From positions 204,876 to 237,851 of the forward strand of contig WQXN01000001.1 of the NCBI GenBank assembly GCA_009784815.1: 32,976 nucleotides of DNA. The letters are read 5' to 3'. Below are positions 9,600 to 32,976 of the stretch, piece by piece (positions within the stretch are counted from its first letter, which is position 1; every line of letters starts with the position of its first letter). This stretch comes from Alphaproteobacteria bacterium (GTDB lineage: Bacteria; Pseudomonadota; Alphaproteobacteria; Rs-D84). The notes beneath the pieces were generated by a model. That model did not search any database and was not told the DNA's origin. It saw only the letters and a program-made list of their open reading frames with translations. The position numbers and the translations under genes are program-made.

Positions 9600-10547
9600 A
9601 TGAGGAAGGTTTTAATAGTCTTAGCCGCTGTTTTTGTGCCGCTGGCCGCGCGCGCGGACTATGGTAATTTTATGGCCGGATACACCCAGTATCTGCCTCA
9701 GCCCGCGACTACCGCGGACTTTGTGTCCATCAACAACTTCCAGTATATGCGCCCGTATATGACGCCAAACATGGCGCGCGAGCTTTCGCCTACGAACAGG
9801 GCGGCGTCGCAGGCCGCGGGGCAGGCCGGTCAGCGCCGCGTATCTCAGCGTCCTGGCAATCCCAACATAGCGCGGAGTGCGGCGGTGGCGCCGAATAATC
9901 ATCCGCAGACTGTAAACCGCCGCGTGAATGCCCGGCCAAACAATCCGAATTTGAACGCCGCGCGCGCGGCGACAAACAATGCTTCGGTTGCTATGAACCA
10001 AGCAAGGTCCGGAGTTATGCAGCCCACGCATCAGACCGGAAGGGCAAGAGAAACCCCCGCGCGCGCCGCTGTAAACACCGCTCCGGCCGAGCCGGTTGCC
10101 ACCGTATCAATGGCCCAGTGCATGTCTGAATACCGGACCTGCATGGATTCATATTGCCTGCGCCAAAACACTCAGTGGGGAAGATGTTTCTGTTCCGCGC
10201 GCCTGTCGCAGCTTGAAGCCGAATTCCAGCCGCAGATCGAACGCGCTCAGCGAACTTTGATAGCCGTATCGATCAGTGGCAAAAACGCCGACCTGTCGGA
10301 TGCCGCTTTGACCGCCGGAATGAGCATACAGTTCGACTGGGCCGGAAACGCCAACGCTATACGCGGACAGGACGCTTTCATTATGGGAAGCCAGGTTTGC
10401 TCGGCCCGTCTTAGGGCTTGTTCGACTGTGGCGAACCAGCTTGTTAATCTATACCGGTCCGAGATGAACCGCGACTGCCAAAGGTATGAAAATATTCTTC
10501 GCGCGCATTTGCAGTCGTTGGAACAACAAATAGCTTCATTTAAGTGA
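9600..10547 (+). CDS. Cysteine-rich secreted protein, family member 1 (minimal form)
   Basis: The protein is 315 residues. It has a signal peptide (MRKVLIVLAAVFVPLAARA) and an Ala/Arg/Asn/Gln-rich disordered region to about residue 165. Then comes the family core CMSEYRTCMDSYC, nine residues, CFCS, with spacing identical in all six family members. A second module has QVCSARLRAC and a NRDCQRYENIL helix. By hand it has eight cysteines after the signal peptide, the smallest set in the family, so it may show the minimal fold. I choose 9600 over the ATG at 9594 because of promoter spacing; 9594 lies right at the -10. It heads a cluster with the next two family genes. The function is unknown; an extracytoplasmic disulfide-bonded protein is the likely type. 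Confidence 0.75.
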   Translation: MRKVLIVLAAVFVPLAARADYGNFMAGYTQYLPQPATTADFVSINNFQYMRPYMTPNMARELSPTNRAASQAAGQAGQRRVSQRPGNPNIARSAAVAPNNHPQTVNRRVNARPNNPNLNAARAATNNASVAMNQARSGVMQPTHQTGRARETPARAAVNTAPAEPVATVSMAQCMSEYRTCMDSYCLRQNTQWGRCFCSARLSQLEAEFQPQIERAQRTLIAVSISGKNADLSDAALTAGMSIQFDWAGNANAIRGQDAFIMGSQVCSARLRACSTVANQLVNLYRSEMNRDCQRYENILRAHLQSLEQQIASFK

Positions 10548-10563
10548 AGGTATATGGTATAAT
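10535..10563 (+). promoter_or_regulatory. Promoter of cysteine-rich gene 2
   Basis: TTCATT (10535-10540) and TATAAT (10558-10563) are 17 bases apart; the -35 overlaps the end of the previous gene. A short leader carries AAGGAG at 10577-10582. Confidence 0.55.
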
Positions 10564-10588
10564 AAGGTGATAATTGAAGGAGATACTA

Positions 10589-12865
10589 ATGATTAAATTA
10601 GTACGGCTTATGGCGTTTGTTGCCGTCGGAATATTCAGCATAACGCAAGTTTCGGCTGATCCGATAGTGTATGACTATTGGTATGATGCGGCGGCCCCGC
10701 GGGGCCAGCAGGCTACGCGCGGTCAGGCGCAGCAGTCGGGACGCGGCATGGACACGCGCCAAGGCGGAAATATTCGCGAAGAAATCGAAGATAGGATAAG
10801 CGGCAATCCGGCGCGGGGCCGCCAGGCTGTGAACGTCGGACAGCGCACCGCCCAGCAAGGGCGCACTGCGGTTCGCACTACGGAAGTGAATGTGGCGCAG
10901 CAAGCTATTGCGGACGGACAGATGCCGACAAGGGCGACGCCGGCGCGCGGTCAGGCGCAAACCAGGGGGCAGCCCGCGGCGCGCGGTCAGGCGCAGCCTT
11001 CAAGGGCAGTGCCAACGGCGGGAACGCCGCAGGCGCGCACGGTTCAGGCGCGCAATGCCAGCGCGCGTTCGGCCATGGTGCCCGGCGCTATGCAGGGCCG
11101 CAACGTTCAGGCGCGAAGCGGAACTGTCGCAAGGGCTTCGTTGCAGGGTAATCCCATTGCGGCGCAGAGTGGTGTGGCGCGAAGCGGAACCAACATGATC
11201 GGCAACACCGTAATGAACATAATAGATGAAAGCACCGGAGGACTGTCGGCGGAAGCATACAACAACTGTATGGCCAGCTATTTCTCGTGCATGGATGAAA
11301 TATGCGCGGCGCGTTCTCCGGGTATGCGCAGGTGCGCCTGTTCAAACCGGGTCAATATGTACAGCACTTTAGAGCAAGAGCTGATGACGCGCCGCGAGGA
11401 TCTGCTTAGATTATCCAGCCAGCTGCAGCTGCTTGAAACTACGCGCGGCGGCGACATAAGCGCGGCGTTTATATTGACCGACGCCGAGCTGACTTTGAAT
11501 TGCGTCGCATTCCGCGAGGCCAGGCTTAGGAACACCGCGACCGCCAGAGAGGCCTGGTGCGATAATCACAACGACGGAAATTCCGGCGCGACGCTGGCAA
11601 GTGGAGGTATTTTGGATAGGGCTGCCTGCTTGAACCTGTTCCAAGGCACGACGGGTCCGCAGTATTGCGTGCGCGTTCTGGGCGACGCCCGCGGAGCGGC
11701 GGCGCTGGACGGAGCGGACAGCACGATCGTGGGTCAGCTTAGGGATTTTTCGGATTCCATAAATACGGCCAACTGGCTTGTCAGCGAAAATCCGAATCAA
11801 TGGTTCGCAAATCTTTGGGGCAATAACGCTTTGTGGGGCCCGACGTTTAATAATACTTCGTCGATAGAAAGAGATGACTGTAACGGAAATATGCTGCAGT
11901 GGGATACGGGTTCCAGCACTTGCAAGCCTATGACCGACGTGCTTGACCTGTGGGGCGAGCAGCTGTTCAACTTTGGACACTACAGTGTTTGCAAGCGCGT
12001 TCTTGATAACTGTTTCAACGGCATCTGCGGCTGGTCTTTGACCAACGCGACGGTCACGCATACGGGCGGCTTGGTTCTGCCGTCGGATCCCGCGCAGTTA
12101 AGCATAGATCAGGACTGCTGGGACAAGCAGATCAGGCTTACCACGGGACATAATCTAAGCGGCGTCAGGCAGCAGACTCCGGTCAATCCCAATCTGAATC
12201 AGCACAGGTACGATCGCGGTAGGGATCAGTTCTTTGCGCTGCGCTCTCCGATCACTCAGGCCCGGTTCAGCATCAGGCAAAAGTATCACTTTGACGCGAA
12301 CGCCGACTGCGACGTGTTCGGTGAAGAATTAAGACGCCAGGTGCAGAACATGAATCTGCAGATGGTCGCGGCCGAGGAAACTTTGAAACATCGCAGGCTT
12401 GAATACGCAGAGGAACGCGCGCAGAGCAATGCGGCCGCGTTGACCGCCGCAAGAAGCAATTTCCACGCGTGCCTTGATCAGATTACGTCGTGCCAGCTGC
12501 GCAACGAATGCGACCATAGGGGACGCAATCCGGAAGGTTTATGCCATGGAAAGAATTCCAGGCAGTCGATACGTACGGCTTGCAGCACTATGACCCAGAT
12601 ACCGGCCTGCTATCAGCAGATGGTTTGCGACCGTGATGCGGGCACCGCTGGCGTAAGGGTTGCCGATAACGCTTCGCTGGGCGTAATAAGGAACGTCGTA
12701 ACCTTGCAGGAAATACTTAGCGGTGTTACGGGGGCAACGCCTGGCAATCCGCAGCACGCGGTCGAAGGTTGCATGGTGTTAGAGCCTATGGTAACGGACA
12801 TCAGGTGTACGCCTATGGCCGCCCCGCCGCTTGTTCCTTCGGTGGGCGCGACCAGCTGTTCGTAA
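10589..12865 (+). CDS. Cysteine-rich secreted protein, family member 2
   Basis: The 758-residue product begins with a signal peptide (LVRLMAFVAVGIFSITQ, cut after VSA). About 190 residues of Arg/Ala/Gln/Gly low complexity follow, with repeated RGQAQ and ARSGT words. The family motif CMASYFSCMDEIC, nine residues, CACS lies near residue 225. Later come SVCKRVLDNC and a DCDVFGEELRRQ helix like the second family module, and HACLDQITSC like the third. The long middle part (residues about 300-520) is specific to this member and has Trp-rich, Asn-rich stretches. I count 26 cysteines. AAGGAG six bases before the ATG at 10589 fixes the start. The next gene starts eight bases after its stop. The function is unknown. 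Confidence 0.75.
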   Translation: MIKLVRLMAFVAVGIFSITQVSADPIVYDYWYDAAAPRGQQATRGQAQQSGRGMDTRQGGNIREEIEDRISGNPARGRQAVNVGQRTAQQGRTAVRTTEVNVAQQAIADGQMPTRATPARGQAQTRGQPAARGQAQPSRAVPTAGTPQARTVQARNASARSAMVPGAMQGRNVQARSGTVARASLQGNPIAAQSGVARSGTNMIGNTVMNIIDESTGGLSAEAYNNCMASYFSCMDEICAARSPGMRRCACSNRVNMYSTLEQELMTRREDLLRLSSQLQLLETTRGGDISAAFILTDAELTLNCVAFREARLRNTATAREAWCDNHNDGNSGATLASGGILDRAACLNLFQGTTGPQYCVRVLGDARGAAALDGADSTIVGQLRDFSDSINTANWLVSENPNQWFANLWGNNALWGPTFNNTSSIERDDCNGNMLQWDTGSSTCKPMTDVLDLWGEQLFNFGHYSVCKRVLDNCFNGICGWSLTNATVTHTGGLVLPSDPAQLSIDQDCWDKQIRLTTGHNLSGVRQQTPVNPNLNQHRYDRGRDQFFALRSPITQARFSIRQKYHFDANADCDVFGEELRRQVQNMNLQMVAAEETLKHRRLEYAEERAQSNAAALTAARSNFHACLDQITSCQLRNECDHRGRNPEGLCHGKNSRQSIRTACSTMTQIPACYQQMVCDRDAGTAGVRVADNASLGVIRNVVTLQEILSGVTGATPGNPQHAVEGCMVLEPMVTDIRCTPMAAPPLVPSVGATSCS

Positions 12866-12873
12866 AATGAAAT

Positions 12874-15105
12874 ATGAAGTTAAGATGGCTTATCTTTGCT
12901 GCTTTAAGTGTCGCGCTTCCGGTAACTCTGGAAGCGGACACTTCCGTTGATGCGGCGCGCGCCGCATCAAGCCGCGGGCAGGTTGTGGTATTGCCTCAAC
13001 CGGTCCCGGTTTCCATCCCCCAAGATGATAATGAAATTGAAAGCAGGGCCGCGACGCGTCAGCAAGTTGTGGCGCCTCTGCCGGTTGGAAGGACTGCGCC
13101 CGCCGCTGCCGGGCGGACTATGCCGCAAACGCAATCTCGCACCGCTGTGCCTGCGCAGGCTGTTGAATCCGCCCGCGCTGTTCAGCGTCGCCAAGCCGGG
13201 GCTGCGACCGATAACCGGGCCGAGGGATCGCGCGCGGTGCGTGCGGCTGCGACCGACTTTACCGAAACGCGCAACGTTAATGTTCGCGATAATAATGTCG
13301 CCGCGCGTCGCGCCACTGCGATCGGTCGCGAACGCGACGCCAATGCGCGTCAAAGCATTGCCGAAGTCGGCGGCCGCGCCGTCATAGCGCGCACCGGAGA
13401 ATACACCGGAACCAATGTGGACTTCCGCGCCGCTACCCGCAACCGCGTGTCGCGCGGACGCGCCGCCGAGGATATTCAGCAGGTCGAAGTAGCCGCCGCC
13501 GCGGCAAGTCCGCTTAATGCGTGCGTCGCCCGTTACGAAGAATGCATGGATCAGTTCTGCAACATAATTGACGATAGGCAGCAGCGATGCTCGTGTTCCG
13601 CGAATATTCAAAATTATCAGGCCGCTGAAGAACAGCTTAAGCGCGCCAATCAGGAACTGAACAATGTGGCTCAGAACATTCGTTACATAGGGCTAAGCGC
13701 GGAAGAAATTCACACTCTGTTCACCGAGACCGAGGCCGAGCTTGCAATGCGCAACGTCACTGACACTACGATCAATAGGTCACTGCTGCAGGAAATAGAA
13801 GACATGATCATGGGGGCGACGACAAATCTTGCGGGCAACGTTCAGCGGGGCCAAGGCGGAGTCTTCGACATAACTTTTGATTTCGACAGCGACATGGATC
13901 TTACAGAAATGTTCGGTGGATTCGGCACTACGAACATAGCCAATCTTCGCGGGCAGAAACTTCGCGATGCGGCCGCGAAAAAATGCAAGCCCATACTTGA
14001 CGATTGCCAAAGGCAGAACGTCAGATCCGAACAGGTCATTGCAAGCTTTGACCTTCGCGTGGAAAAGGATTGCATCGAGTACGAGCAGACTCTGCGTCGC
14101 ATGAACGATTCGGTTGCGAACAACATACGCGCCGCGCAGACCATGTTGCAGCGAGCGCGCCTTACCGTGCTTCACGATCAGAACGAGCTGGACTTCAAAG
14201 GCTGCGTTCAGGCGCTTGATCATTGCGTCTTGGAAGACACCGCTTGCGGGCGCAATTACATAAGGTGCCTTGATCCAAGCCGCCGATTCTTGGACGAAAC
14301 GGGTAAGGTTATATTTGGCAGCAATCTGCCGTTGATAAGAAATAACTTCATCGGAGCTGTCGACGCCGGAGGTACTATTATACCCATGAACGAATGGCGC
14401 AATCAACCGATCATAAATAACCTGAAAGAAAACAAAGTCGGAGTTCCGGGACAATCGGGAATGTGCGCCGATGTAATGAAGCGCTGCCGTCGCCTAACTT
14501 TCCCAGGGCCAAGCGGCGGAACCTACCGCGAGGATAACGAAGTCATCAAGGCGTTCATGGCGCGCGCTATAAATCAGATGAATGTATCCGCAAGCCGCGT
14601 GGTGTCCGACTTCGCAAGCCGCTGTTTGCAGGAAGTGGGAACCTGCTATAACACTCAGGTTACAAATATGTCGGCGTGGACTTCCGGCTGGAGCGCAGTC
14701 AGCGCCGCAAGCGTGAAAAACGTCATGATCGGAGCCTGCCGTTCCGTCGCCATAACCTGCGCCGCAAGCATCTTTATGAACAATGACGATTTATGTCCGG
14801 TGACCAATCCGAATCCGCCCGCCGGTCAGACGGGATTGGACGAACCGGAATGTATCGAAAACTTGTCGAACCTATTTTATAATTCCTTGCTTTGCGGGCC
14901 AAACATGATATTTAACGGCGCGGATCAAAAATGCTATTGCATGGAGGGTTTCGAGCTTGTCGGCGGATTCTGCCGCCAGTGTCAGGGGGTAAGGCTTGAT
15001 GGCGCGACTTGTCCGACTACTCCAAGTCCGTTGGGCTGGGTGTCGACTGGCGCCGGCACTGCGGTTAGTACCGTTTGCTGTGCTGCGGTTGCTGGCACTC
15101 CCTAA
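12874..15105 (+). CDS. Cysteine-rich secreted protein, family member 3, with EGF-like tail
   Basis: The protein has 743 residues. A signal peptide (MKLRWLIFAALSVALPVTLEA) is followed by an Ala/Arg-rich stretch to residue 205. The motif CVARYEECMDQFC, nine residues, CSCS lies near 215. The second module is KKCKPILDDC with EKDCIEYEQTL. The third is GCVQALDHC with ACGRNYIRC, then MCADVMKRC and RCLQEVGTC. The C terminus differs from its relatives: CYCMEGFELVGGFCRQC resembles an EGF-type or growth-factor-receptor-type cysteine loop. I count 28 cysteines. There is no Shine-Dalgarno and only eight bases separate it from the preceding stop, so translation is probably coupled. Gene order suggests co-expression with members 1 and 2. 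Confidence 0.75.
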   Translation: MKLRWLIFAALSVALPVTLEADTSVDAARAASSRGQVVVLPQPVPVSIPQDDNEIESRAATRQQVVAPLPVGRTAPAAAGRTMPQTQSRTAVPAQAVESARAVQRRQAGAATDNRAEGSRAVRAAATDFTETRNVNVRDNNVAARRATAIGRERDANARQSIAEVGGRAVIARTGEYTGTNVDFRAATRNRVSRGRAAEDIQQVEVAAAAASPLNACVARYEECMDQFCNIIDDRQQRCSCSANIQNYQAAEEQLKRANQELNNVAQNIRYIGLSAEEIHTLFTETEAELAMRNVTDTTINRSLLQEIEDMIMGATTNLAGNVQRGQGGVFDITFDFDSDMDLTEMFGGFGTTNIANLRGQKLRDAAAKKCKPILDDCQRQNVRSEQVIASFDLRVEKDCIEYEQTLRRMNDSVANNIRAAQTMLQRARLTVLHDQNELDFKGCVQALDHCVLEDTACGRNYIRCLDPSRRFLDETGKVIFGSNLPLIRNNFIGAVDAGGTIIPMNEWRNQPIINNLKENKVGVPGQSGMCADVMKRCRRLTFPGPSGGTYREDNEVIKAFMARAINQMNVSASRVVSDFASRCLQEVGTCYNTQVTNMSAWTSGWSAVSAASVKNVMIGACRSVAITCAASIFMNNDDLCPVTNPNPPAGQTGLDEPECIENLSNLFYNSLLCGPNMIFNGADQKCYCMEGFELVGGFCRQCQGVRLDGATCPTTPSPLGWVSTGAGTAVSTVCCAAVAGTP

Positions 15106-18869: not shown

Positions 18870-21800
18870 ATGAAGAAAATATTGCTTGCAATTATTTGCG
18901 GCTCGGCTTTATTGACATTGGTTGCGGATGCTAATCCGCAGACCGCGCGCGGTCGGCCCGGTGCTGGTACGCCTCAAGCGGGTGCGCAGCAGGCAACGGC
19001 AGCTACAGCGGGACAGGCGGCGGTCGGTGCGCGTCAGCGTCCGGGCGCGGGTGCACAACCGGCGGCGGGTGCGGGGCAAGCGACCGCCGGCGCTCCGGCG
19101 GTACGCGCAAGGGCTGGCACAGGACAAGCGGCGCAGCAGCCGACGGCGCAGCGCGCGCGTGCGGCTACGGCCCCGGCGGCGGGTGCTCCGGTTACGGCGC
19201 GTTCCGGCACAACTCCGGTTCAAGGTGCGCCGGGCGCGAATGTTGCGCGCTCGGGCACTATGCAGCGTCCTACCGGAATATTGACGCAGGGCGTTCAAGT
19301 GCAGGCCGCGGCCGAGGCTACGGGACTTGTTAATGAAGAGTGTCGCAACATGTGGTTCGGATGCATGGATACCCTTTGCATATTGGGGAACGAGCATGGA
19401 ATGCGTTGTTCCTGCTCGGACGAGCGTAAAAGATTCGATACGATACTTGCCGAAATAGAAACCATGAACGACAATATAAGACGTCATGGAGCGGCCGCGT
19501 TAGAACGTATAAACATGACCGAGGCCGAGCGCGCTAATGTAGACGAAATCATGCGTCAGGTCGGCGCGTATATGGATATAACCGATAATCCGGCCGCTGC
19601 TCGGACTTCGGTCCAGGCTAGGCCGCGCCCAAGAACTAATTTTGTCGACGCGTTTGCCAATCTTAATCTTGACGGCACCGTCGGATTCGAAGAATTCGGC
19701 GCAGGCGAAGATTTGTCCAAACTGCAGGGCGCCGCGCTGTTCAGCCGCGCAAGCAATATATGCCGCGTGCAGATAAGGGACAGGCTTGGACAGGCTTGCA
19801 CAAGCCGCGAGATGGAAATGATTCAGACCATGTACAACCAGATGATTACTTCAGATTGCCGCGCTTATGAAACCGAAATCAGGCAGCGCCGTCAGCGCGC
19901 AGTGCAGAATCTGGAAGTGGTCAACGCCGCGGCGCGCGAAGCCATCGTGGATCAGTACCGTGAAAGAAACCGTCTTGACCTGGGCGGGTGCGTCGGCGAA
20001 TTCCGTAGTTGCATGACCGGACCGGAAGTCTGCGGCGACGGATGGATCAGATGCGCCACAAACCTTTTCGATCAGCATGAACTTACCGGAGCCAGCCAGA
20101 CCGGGGAACGTATTAGGCAGCAGAATGCTCCGTCTTTTACCCGCGGCGGCATAACGGTCACGGCGGCAACTATGGAGCGCATGGAAAGCAAAAGAATAAT
20201 GTGCGACCGCGTTCTTGATTCCTGTCAGGATGTGCGCGATCAGGTTTGGGATAGATTCCTTGGCATAGTCATGCCCGAACTTCGCAGCGGAGAGCTTATG
20301 ACGGGTGCGCTGGCGCGTACGGCCTGCATACCCGATGTCGTCAATTGCATAATGACTACCTGCAACGTCAAGTTCGGAAGCGACGAGGCAAGCATGGAGG
20401 CATGCTTTACCGACAGAGATCTTGCGCGTGAAAGCTGCGCGTCTGGAATGGCGGACAAAACTACCGGACAGCGCGGACTGGGCATCGACAAGTGCGAGGG
20501 CATACTGGGCCAGGGATTATGGTTTTATATAGACGACAAGCTTGCGAGTATGAGAATTAACGCATGCTCGACAGCGGTGCGCGCGGCGGTGGAAAACCCG
20601 AACGTTTGCGGACCTACTCTTAGCCTTTGTGGGGGTATGTCCGTCGATCAAGTGTTGAACATGATAGTCAGATTTGACAGTAATGATACTGCGCGCGGAC
20701 AGACGGATAGTGTCCTTACGGCTTGCCGCGAGGTGCAAACCCTTACCGCCGCGCAGCGTGCGGCAGGGCAGCAGGCGGATTATTCCGACGTAGGTCCGTC
20801 GGTCGTGAAAATCAGACCGATCATTCAGGGCTTGCTGCTTGGTATGGATACCGCTTTGACGTTGGCTTGCACGAATGCGGCGCAAACCAGAATGATGGAA
20901 GTCTGCGGCAGTCTTGAAAATTGCGACAAAGTATTCGGCGCAGGCGTCAGCGCCGGCTTGGTTCCTACGCATCCATATGTGATAAACATCCAACCGGCTT
21001 GCAGAAAACTTGATAATTCGCAAGATATTGCCGAGCAAATAAAAACCGGATTACAAAGGATGATCGATAGAATGAACCATGAAGGCGGAAGTTATTGGAG
21101 AGAGCACAGGATATCGGATTGGACGAATCTTAGAAGTCTTCTTGATCCGGCAAAAGACAAGATTGCGTACGACGCTTTCACGGACATGATAAACTGGGCC
21201 AATCATCATGCCAATAGTTGGAACGTCGCCAGGCGCACCGAATCGAGAAGAATGTCAGAAACCTTAAGGAATAATATTGCGAACGTAATCGTTGTTGGTG
21301 GTAATTTCAGCTCGTTCTCGACTAATCCAAACGCCGAAGTCTGTACCTATTCAGTATGCAATCTATTCGAAGACTTGGGCAGGGGAGCTATTGAGAATCG
21401 CATAAGCTTTGTGACTCCGCAGGCTTTTGCGGATGATGCTAAAATAGGTTCGAATGCTGGCAGGCAATTTGCGGCCGCAGGTAATCCCGCGTCCTTGTCC
21501 ATGTCGCAGTTCGTCATAAATTGCGGAGATGAAAGATTTAGAATATCTTCGCCTTCGAATGAACGGCATCAAAGGCGGAATCCGCATGAAACCGCCCGGC
21601 CAAGAAATGCCGCTGGTGCGCTTGACGCTTGTCCAAGCGGCACGGCTTCGGATCATGCAACCGGTCATTCCTGCTTTAGGAATTGTGAAGGCGGCGCGAT
21701 CACTTCCGGTTTTGCTCCGCTGCATTGTCCTTTCGCGCAGCCTGGATGCGGCGGTACGGGTGACGCCGTTGGCAATGGCGGTTGGGGTGGTCACATGCCC

Positions 21801-30164: not shown

Positions 30165-30184
30165 CATTTTATGATTTTTTATGG

Positions 30185-30190
30185 TATAAT
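30185..30190 (+). promoter_or_regulatory. -10 box of cysteine-rich gene 6
   Basis: A perfect TATAAT lies 28 bases before the ATG at 30219; the -35 is poor. The leader contains GGAAAGAG as a possible ribosome-binding site, so this member would have a short leader. Confidence 0.5.
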
Positions 30191-30218
30191 ATTCCATAGA
30201 ACACAGTATGGAAAGAGA

Positions 30219-32417
30219 ATGCCGATGCCAGTTTTAAATTACGCCAAAATTTTGGCCGCAGTTTTAATCGCGGTCGTGTTTTCAGCGGAATACGTTTCCG
30301 CTAATCCAAATCCGCCAAGCCGCGCTGGCCGCACCGTCGCTGCCGGTCGCGCAGCTCCGGCTTCGGCAACGCAGCCCGCCGAATCCGCAAACCAGGAAGT
30401 AATGATTCAATTCGTCGACGAAGCGCCAAGCGCCGAGCGAGTCAGCATGCGTATGGCTCCGGGCGCCCGGACCGCTCCGGCCGCCGCACGCGGAGGAACC
30501 GATACGATAACAAACACGCCGGGGTCAGGTGCGGGAATTATCGCCGCGCAGTCCGCCGGGATTAATGCAGCCGCCGTATCTTCCGGAAACCCCGCCGAAG
30601 ACTGTCGCAAAAGTTATTTTGACTGCATGGATCAGTTCTGCATGACGGATGACACTAATGCCGAGCGTTGCGTATGCTCGGCCCGCATAGTTGAATTCGA
30701 CAAGACCATGGATGCAATCCGCAAAATTCAGGCGGACGCCGAGAAACTTATGAACGAAGGCGTCGAACGCGAGATGCTTGGCGCGCGCGCGAATCATGTC
30801 TTTGGTGCGAACCAGGTGTCTCCAAGAAACCGCGTCCTGAACCTGTCGTTCGACGACGATGAATTTTTTGAAGATGTAGGAATAGACTCTGCTGCCGTCA
30901 CAAGACGCGGAGCGCTGCTGTTCGAACATGCGGCGCAGTTGTGCAAAAGCAGGCTTGATAATTGCGACGGTAACGATGCCGAGATGGCCCGCAGCCTTTA
31001 CGCGCAGCAGGTTAGGAACGATTGCAATGCTTTCAACAGTTTCCTTAATGAACAAAAACGCACCGCCGAAAACAACAAGCTTGCCGCCGAACGCGAAGTG
31101 CGTCGCGCAAGAACCGAGATGCTTGACGTTACAAACAGATTCAATCGCGGAGAATGTCTGATACAGATGAGGGACTGCGTCGCCACCAAGGGCGGATGCG
31201 GAGCGAATTTTGAAAACTGTTTGGACGCCTCGTTATTGCGTCGCCGCACTATGGCCTGCGAAAACATTCTTGATCAGTGCATGGCCGTGCGCCGCGATGT
31301 CGAGCGCGACTGGCGCGAAGAAGAAAGATCTATACTTGCCGAAGCCGCAAGACACGCCGACAGAAACCGCCGCGGAACCTGCCTTGCGCGGATCGACGCG
31401 TGCTTGGAAGAATCCTGCGCGCCATCGGTCAACGACCAATGTCTGACCGACATTCGGATCGCGCGCGGAGTATGCCCGGTCATGGACGAATGCGACCGCC
31501 TGGTGCCCGGCATAGCCGCCGTGTTTAACGCGCGTCTTGCTTCGGTCCGCGTAAGATTCTGCCAGACCGACCTGACCGGATGTTTCCGTGATCGCTGCGG
31601 AGTGAATTTCAATAACCCGGCCTGCGTCGGGAAAACGGCCGAAGAAATAAGCGGTATGTGCCCGCAGCAAATGTTCCCAAGCTGCGCCGGCATGAGGGAC
31701 TTTGCCGCGATACAGGGCGGCGTCATGATGAACGTCGACTTCGCGCTTATGCAGGGATGCGTGAACCTGTTCTCGGAAAGGCTGAACCAGCTTTGTGGAA
31801 TGGACATGACTTGCTTGGATGAAAACATGGGCGCGCCGCGCAATCTTAATACCGTAGCGGAATTGGAAAATTATGATTTCAGACCCGCGGTCGAAGCTGC
31901 GGTGAACAGATTCTTTGTCACCTTCGAACAGGATCCGACTTTGGCTTCGTGCAGCGGCAATCTTGGCACGGCTATGTTCACTTCGACGAAAATGGTCGCG
32001 CAATTATTGGCCGAACAACGCGCAAGCCGGAATAACTTTAGGCGCATTGCGGAATTTACCCGCCGCGAGGATGTGGCCGCCGCGCGCGCCGCTTGCGAGA
32101 GCATGTACGAGCGCGGACGTAATGACAGCTCGCCCGTTGTGTCGGCTACCTTCGAGCCTAACTTAAGAAACTGCCGCGTATGCCGCAACCAAACCGTAAT
32201 TGCGCGCGGCGGAGAAAGCAAAGGCGAAACCGCGATGAAAGTAGGTGCGGGCGGACTTGCCGCGGGCGCGGGTGTCGGTGCGATGTTCGGGCCGCTTGGC
32301 GCCGCGATCGGCGGAGGAGTGGGCTTGATCGGAGGTATGATCGGCGGAGCCGTCATGGGTAAGGGCATACAGACGGACGAAAGCGAGTTAACCTCGTGTG
32401 AGGACGTGAATATGTAG
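30219..32417 (+). CDS. Cysteine-rich secreted protein, family member 6, with glycine-zipper tail
   Basis: The 732-residue product has a signal peptide (LNYAKILAAVLIAVVFSAEY, cut after VSA) and an Ala/Pro/Arg-rich stretch. The family motif CRKSYFDCMDQFC, nine residues, CVCS lies near residue 127. Modules shared with members 4 and 5 follow: LCKSRLDNC with RNDCNAFNSFL, ECLIQMRDC with GCGANFENC, ACENILDQC, TCLARIDACLEESC, and FCQTDLTGCFRDRC. Unlike its relatives, it ends in a glycine-zipper-type hydrophobic stretch (GAGVGAMFGPLGAAIGGGVG and on through GGMIGGAVMG) that could insert into a membrane. I count 34 mature cysteines, the last after that stretch. The stop codon lies within the repeat at 32402-32512. 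The function is unknown. Confidence 0.78.
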   Translation: MPMPVLNYAKILAAVLIAVVFSAEYVSANPNPPSRAGRTVAAGRAAPASATQPAESANQEVMIQFVDEAPSAERVSMRMAPGARTAPAAARGGTDTITNTPGSGAGIIAAQSAGINAAAVSSGNPAEDCRKSYFDCMDQFCMTDDTNAERCVCSARIVEFDKTMDAIRKIQADAEKLMNEGVEREMLGARANHVFGANQVSPRNRVLNLSFDDDEFFEDVGIDSAAVTRRGALLFEHAAQLCKSRLDNCDGNDAEMARSLYAQQVRNDCNAFNSFLNEQKRTAENNKLAAEREVRRARTEMLDVTNRFNRGECLIQMRDCVATKGGCGANFENCLDASLLRRRTMACENILDQCMAVRRDVERDWREEERSILAEAARHADRNRRGTCLARIDACLEESCAPSVNDQCLTDIRIARGVCPVMDECDRLVPGIAAVFNARLASVRVRFCQTDLTGCFRDRCGVNFNNPACVGKTAEEISGMCPQQMFPSCAGMRDFAAIQGGVMMNVDFALMQGCVNLFSERLNQLCGMDMTCLDENMGAPRNLNTVAELENYDFRPAVEAAVNRFFVTFEQDPTLASCSGNLGTAMFTSTKMVAQLLAEQRASRNNFRRIAEFTRREDVAAARAACESMYERGRNDSSPVVSATFEPNLRNCRVCRNQTVIARGGESKGETAMKVGAGGLAAGAGVGAMFGPLGAAIGGGVGLIGGMIGGAVMGKGIQTDESELTSCEDVNM

Positions 32418-32512
32418 AAAACATGACCGACGTCATGTTTTCTCACGTCCGAGCAGAAATCCAAAATCTTTGATTTTGTGAATTCGTCGTGGACGTGAAT
32501 ATGTAGAAAACA
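32402..32512 (+). repeat. Double-hairpin repeat, copy 1, with 22-base flanking direct repeats
   Basis: A 22-base sequence starting GGACGTGAATATG and holding the TAG stop of the preceding gene occurs at 32402-32423 and again at 32491-32512. Between the copies are hairpin 1 (AAAACATGAC/GTCATGTTTT, 32418-32441), the complement TCACGTCC (32443-32450), and hairpin 2 (32456-32485, AAAATC/GATTTT core). Removing one copy plus the core rebuilds a normal short gap with the next gene's ribosome-binding site. Confidence 0.75.
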
Positions 32513-32528
32513 AAAAGGAGAGAACTAA

Positions 32529-32864
32529 ATGATAAAGAAAAGTCTTATTGTAATAATGGCGGCGACCGCGTTGGGCGCTTGCAGAATGGACAAGCCGACG
32601 AACCTTGCCTGCGGCGATCATAACATAAAAATATTCCAAAAGGGCGAGAACGCGATCACCGCGGTGGTGAACGATAGATTCAGCGTCAAGATGGACCGCG
32701 TGGTCGCAGGTTCCGGCGCTATGTACCTTGCCGAGAACGTCTGGGGCGAGCAGGGCGATCTGACCTACATCTGGCAGCTGATCATCTGGAACCGCGGAGA
32801 CGAATGGTTGGTATCGGTCGATACTGGATATGATCTTTCGTGTGAAGTGGTGGTCGGAAATTAA
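32529..32864 (+). CDS. Small lipoprotein, possibly MliC-like
   Basis: The 111-residue protein has a lipoprotein signal with lipobox LGAC (cysteine at residue 18). The mature domain of about 90 residues has a cysteine at each end (LACGDH and LSCEVV), the SGAMYLAENVWGE stretch, and alternating strands. MliC, the membrane-bound lysozyme inhibitor, has a similar size, paired terminal cysteines and an SGA motif, so I suggest that fold with low confidence. It could be another small beta-sandwich lipoprotein. AAGGAG lies nine bases before the ATG. Its stop codon is part of the second double-hairpin repeat, like that of the gene before it. Confidence 0.65.
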   Translation: MIKKSLIVIMAATALGACRMDKPTNLACGDHNIKIFQKGENAITAVVNDRFSVKMDRVVAGSGAMYLAENVWGEQGDLTYIWQLIIWNRGDEWLVSVDTGYDLSCEVVVGN

Positions 32865-32976
32865 TTTTTAATTTCCGATAAAACATGACGGGTGTCATGT
32901 TTTAAACCACGGAATAGAATCCCCAAATCTATGATTTGGTGGATTCGCTGCGGAAGCTTGGAACTCGGAAATTAAT
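32854..32976 (+). repeat. Double-hairpin repeat, copy 2, running to the window edge
   Basis: TCGGAAATTAAT, which includes the stop codon of the lipoprotein gene, is at 32854-32865 and again at 32965-32976. Between them are the complement TTAATTTCCG (32868-32877), hairpin 1 (AAAACATGAC/GTCATGTTTT, 32880-32903, same arms as copy 1) and hairpin 2 (GAATCC-c-CAAATC / GATTTG-gt-GGATTC, 32917-32946). The second direct repeat may continue beyond the window. Confidence 0.7.

Follow-up and report, generated by a model that had tools for sequence, protein, structure and literature searches.

The two double-hairpin sequences at the end of the DNA analysed here are copies of a small non-autonomous palindromic repeat of about 84 bp that has spread within a single genus of uncultured, small-genome alphaproteobacteria. 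We put the probability that this is a mobile palindromic element of the kind known as Rickettsia palindromic elements (RPEs) at about 0.9. "The window" is the whole stretch of 32,976 nucleotides that was analysed (G000:C1:204876-237851), and its end coincides with the end of contig C1. An earlier note, made from the window's sequence, had suggested a small mobile palindromic element, and dispersed copies, empty sites in orthologues and in-frame insertions bear this out. The note had staked its proposal on other copies in the genome and on orthologous sites that lack the element; both exist. The element was without prior description in the literature searched, and no Rfam family matched the end of the window.

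Distribution of the element

The window's genome (G000) was compared with three relatives of the same genus (G001, G002 and G003), four genomes in total. A covariance model (R1), trained on the first five copies with one base omitted from one training row to ease alignment, finds 24 copies in three of the four genomes: five in G000 (two on contig C1 and one each on C9, C5 and C2), seven in G002 and 12 in G001, where one element may have been counted twice among three identical copies at the ends of contigs. Contig ends hold several of the copies, which is usual for a repeat at which assemblies break. The same search found no copy in G003 and nothing convincing in the remaining 197 genomes of the order; weak matches in G098, G165 and G003 were set aside because the element's sequence is absent from them. 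Matches to the core with one mismatch in the family turned out to be a single homologous coding stretch and not the element, while the one match to the hairpin 1 pattern among viral contigs has no hairpin 2.

The two copies in the window

Copy 1 (32399..32489, + strand; G000:C1:237274-237364, 82.3 bits) has as its target the 3' end of an open frame of 748 amino acids (30171..32417, +) for which no Pfam family was matched. Hairpin 1, AAAACATGAC-CGAC-GTCATGTTTT, occupies 32418..32441 (+) and hairpin 2 occupies 32456..32485 (+). Between them lies the 3' arm of an outer stem, TCACGTCC (32443..32450, +), which, as read from the sequence, is an inverted copy of the gene end and pairs with GGACGTGA there. 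An exact direct repeat of 22 bases flanks the copy: the first unit (32402..32423, +) lends its first 8 bases to the 5' arm of the outer stem, and the second (32491..32512, +) adjoins the ribosome-binding site of the next gene.

That next gene (32529..32864, +; 111 amino acids), with a weak MliC-like match below the cut-off in the Pfam search, bears copy 2 at its 3' end (32869..32950, +; G000:C1:237744-237825, 61.8 bits). Here hairpin 1 (32880..32903, +) reads AAAACATGAC-GGGT-GTCATGTTTT, the 3' arm of the outer stem is ACCAC (32906..32910, +), which pairs with GTGGT in the gene end, and hairpin 2 follows at 32917..32946 (+). The gene end and its inverted copy form an extra hairpin (32854..32878, +), and TTAATTTCCGA (32868-32878) together with ACCAC makes up the reverse complement of the gene end GTGGTCGGAAATTAA (32850-32864). 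The order is thus a gene end and then its own reverse complement, split by hairpin 1, and the copy at the gene in G000 that we take to be lptB is built alike. The identical hairpin 1 arms and the inverted copies of both gene ends had been described correctly in the earlier note; the paired change that it had seen between the two second hairpins is likewise present, as one of several paired differences.

Chance is excluded as the source of these features. The 22-base core pattern, with at most three mismatches, matches twice in the window against 0.02 expected, and the longest direct repeat found by chance in shuffled flanks is 12 bases against the 22 seen. Measured against shuffled sequence, the folding of the two copies has z scores of -4.6 and -6.9. 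As a separate observation on the window's proteins, stretches from a single cysteine-rich type of protein, such as CMDQFC, recur in several of its large genes (9949-14007, 20202-20225 and 30621-30965), and the last large gene with stretches of this type has no Pfam match.

Anatomy and paired changes

Across the genus the element measures 84-91 bp and consists of an outer stem enclosing hairpin 1, followed by hairpin 2. Its consensus runs TGAGGACGG, linker, hairpin 1, CCGTCC, GAGCAG, hairpin 2 and CGTTG. Pairing is kept while the sequence changes. Changes on both sides are seen at 14 of the 27 base pairs, a number reached in none of 500 shuffles and counted on an alignment that had been fitted to the model and is for that reason biased towards pairing. 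The same pairing signal appears on a MAFFT alignment of the first five copies. Among 16 distinct rows, 97.7% of cells are paired, and the covariation score is 0.29 as against 0.10 in shuffles and collapses when the structure is slid along the alignment. Hairpin 1, too, shows paired changes between copies of the genus (AAATCATGCC/GGCATGATTT), and the orthologous lptB copies of G000 and G001 differ in the same way (GAACGG/CCGTTC versus GGACGG/CCGTCC).

Insertion sites and empty sites

The copies fall at gene ends, between genes, in frame within conserved genes and in the loops of older palindromic repeats. Gene ends are occupied by the two window copies and by the copies at lptB in G000 and G001, where the element starts at the stop codon. 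Six copies lie inside conserved genes with the frame intact, namely murG, xseA, proS and a large ORF in G001 and tsaD and gpmI in G002 (these names, like lptB, we assigned from the sequences). They encode peptides such as EDGQRNHAGRHDFPSEQNPRIFNSVDSLS, and orthologues of murG, xseA, proS, tsaD and gpmI are without the insert.

An empty site for copy 1 is found in G003, where the window's gene pair stands in the same order and uninterrupted; in G002 the gene end TSCEDVNM is present without the element and is followed by other sequence. The C-terminus TSCEDVNM of the upstream protein is identical in these two genomes, neither of which has the element there. Since their gene ends match without it, GACGTGAATATGTA is host sequence, and copy 1 entered the G000 lineage where the host DNA already looked like the 5' end of the element. 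The idea that copy 1 had supplied the C-terminus of the upstream protein was rejected, as the element-free relatives end in the same residues.

Nesting in other palindromic repeats

The loops in which many copies of the element have landed belong to a repeat of the form CTCCCCCCTTGCGGGGGAG..GGTGGGGGG and to repeats of the form GTCATTCC..GGAATCC. At one site in proS, G002 carries the outer palindrome alone and G001 carries the palindrome plus the element. This suggests that the outer repeat, common to G001 and G002, came first and that the element was added later in G001; loss of the element from the G002 gene would be a less simple alternative. With the outer palindrome, itself an independent repeat, the element comes to near 130 bp. 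A third level is formed by a repeat of 105-109 bp starting with GAGCGCATAAGCGC, which several copies carry within hairpin 2 and which is itself a dispersed family in G001, G002 and G003 (for example G001:C7:579-687 and G001:C5:3470-3576).

The outer repeat, CTCCCCCCTTGCGGGGGAG-TC-[hairpin]-GGTGGGGGG, occurs in G001, G002 and G003 with constant flanks. Among 43 copies its middle hairpin takes 39 distinct sequences, in which 89% of positions are mirror-paired as against 31% in shuffles.

Flanking direct repeats

The earlier note had read the flanking repeats as a target duplication. Both repeats that it named are present, the 22-base one exactly (32402-32423 and 32491-32512) and the 12-base one (32854-32865 and 32965-32976) cut by the window edge. 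The second unit of the latter (32965..32976, +) is the start of a further unit in a 111-bp tandem array and is cut by the contig end. The first 23 bases of contig C9 are the last 23 of C1 and lead into one complete and one partial 111-bp unit, and the two contigs probably abut at this array. A third locus (G000:C2:149904-149989), upstream of a gene that we take, from its sequence only, to be glyceraldehyde-3-phosphate dehydrogenase-like, has an exact flanking direct repeat of 41 bp. All three loci with flanking direct repeats (22 bp, 41 bp and the tandem array) are in G000. Of 15 copies tested, 13 (12 from G001 and G002, plus the one at lptB) have no flanking duplication that exceeds chance. 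Duplication is seen at the G000 loci and, being absent from the 12 copies tested in the two relatives, is not a general signature of the element. For the direct repeats in G000, local tandem duplication is a better reading than the footprint of a transposase.

Orientation along the chromosome

Copies of the outer repeat, 53 of which lie in G001, tend to point one way along a contig: neighbouring pairs share a direction in 37 of 40 cases (p = 2e-8). Wherever that direction is uniform along a contig of G001, the element's copies there share it, and on C3, C4, C5, C7, C8, C9 and C14 outer and inner repeats all run one way irrespective of gene strand. Because ORFs that span the outer repeat occur on either strand (29 versus 19), gene direction is not the main cause of this polarity. 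Replication direction is the likely cause, and GC skew agrees only weakly with that reading.

How the element may move

Taken together, the element is best explained as a mobile RPE-like sequence that has no function for its host and spreads in step with replication, and we regard this fuller account as probable, with a confidence somewhat below that for mobility itself. The element would be tolerated much as RPEs are. Its spread and repair would take place during replication, when single-stranded hairpins would let the polymerase switch templates. Such switching would explain at once the landing in hairpins, the inverted copies of gene ends, the complementary arms, the tandem duplications and the orientation along the chromosome. 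Hairpin stems are known to arise and to be repaired through template switching (PMC8794818). We propose it here from pattern only and hold it tentatively, at a little under even odds. Selection on structure could also be the cause of the paired changes, and the mover could be a transposase of an unfamiliar type or one encoded in the 8-13% of the carrier genomes that is missing.

Among competing explanations the strongest, though in our judgement unlikely, is a classical MITE, in which a full-length insertion sequence mobilises a truncated transposon in trans and the target site is duplicated. In its favour are the small size and defined ends (TGAGGACGG...CGTTG), the dispersed copies and empty sites, and the 22-bp and 41-bp flanking repeats at two G000 loci. 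However, the duplications are of unequal length, none exceeds chance at the lptB copy or at the 12 copies tested in the two relatives, and a partner enzyme was not found among the two transposase families searched. Y1 transposases (RAYT, PF01797) are absent from the carriers G000-G002 and IS110 transposases were not found in them, these genomes being 8-13% incomplete. A single PF01797 match occurs in G003, which is without the element, and the REP-type transposase for which the earlier note proposed a search was not found in any of the three carriers. SbcD, which is part of a hairpin nuclease, had no match above the cut-off in 40 relatives of the order, non-carriers included. Its absence may let palindromes persist, but does not explain why the element is restricted to one genus, because the non-carriers also lack a match.

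The strong folding and the covariation, together with the position of the window and lptB copies at stop codons, would also fit a selected RNA, in which hairpins behind genes act as transcription stops or shield the 3' ends of mRNAs and selection keeps the pairing. We consider this improbable. No terminator-like site (a G+C-rich stem followed by a T run) was found on the + strand at either window copy, and many copies lie in frame within conserved genes, where termination would harm and where they cannot be terminators, so the effect on termination that the earlier note had raised found no support. Nor was any Rfam family matched, and orthologues manage without the element. Least probable of all is that hairpin 1 is a protein-binding operator whose fixed sequence reflects a regulator. 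The palindrome AAACATGAC-N4-GTCATGTTTT does occur in 97 stretches of a species-genome collection, mostly from unrelated bacteria, but these lack the outer stem and hairpin 2, and within the genus hairpin 1 varies by paired changes and has copies inside genes. Except for two, which are G002 itself, the 97 matches were rejected as unrelated palindromes; they are frequent in Nitrospira and Flavobacteriia and occur also in Bacillales and others, and in unrelated bacteria the palindrome may be the operator of some regulator.

Relation to known repeats

The closest known kind is the RPE, described by Ogata et al. (2000) and covered in a later summary (PMC2229807), where its length is given as 105-146 bp. 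RPEs, like the present element, are small, hairpin-forming and dispersed in many copies in an alphaproteobacterial host, lie between genes as well as in frame inside conserved genes, and have no known transposase (PMC2229807). Unlike RPEs, the element is 84-91 bp long, belongs to another lineage and is nested in the loops of other palindromes; its arms are kept paired by double changes, whereas those of RPEs reportedly lose identity over time (PMC6649704). It works in the manner of RPEs but falls outside their size range, and on this comparison, which covered structure, length and placement, we do not class it as an RPE.

Other families share single traits with it. The CGTC- and GTAG-tagged REPs are also palindromic and sometimes lie inside genes, and the CGTC families are common in Alphaproteobacteria without a dedicated transposase; REPs, however, are single hairpins of 20-40 bp, whereas the element has two hairpins and an outer stem in about 84 bp (PMC3733652). 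REP-like palindromes (GTCATTCC..GGAATCC) serve the element as landing sites. With bacterial MITEs such as Correia, ERIC and RUP it shares size class, stem-loop structure and non-autonomous spread (PMC2229807), but it lacks their target duplication of constant length, and a partner transposase was not found in the searches for Y1 and IS110. Coding palindromes in the mitochondria of Nematomorpha are inverted repeats in host genes for which template switching or arm conversion has been proposed (PMC6649704). They too keep paired arms inside coding sequence, although they lie within mitochondrial host genes and the element is a dispersed bacterial repeat family.

Implications

A wider and more doubtful possibility is that there is a class of repeats that moves and renews itself free of any transposase, through template switching between hairpins at the replication fork. 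Hairpins would then take in other hairpins, host sequence would be copied in inverted form on the spot, and arms would be re-copied and so stay paired even within essential genes. If this is true, the clearest trace of such renewal would be the outer repeat, with its constant flanks around a variable and well-paired middle hairpin (39 of 43). The copies counsel caution in any case: some of them sit within coding genes, and paired changes in a hairpin are therefore no sure sign of an RNA under selection. To our knowledge, the way in which RPEs move is still unsettled. The four related genomes offer filled and empty sites, nested layers that can be ordered by age, paired changes between orthologous copies and a strong orientation bias, and with these four kinds of data together the mechanism can be tested by comparing sequences alone. 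The copies may thereby show how elements of this sort move, and how they keep their hairpins, without a known transposase.
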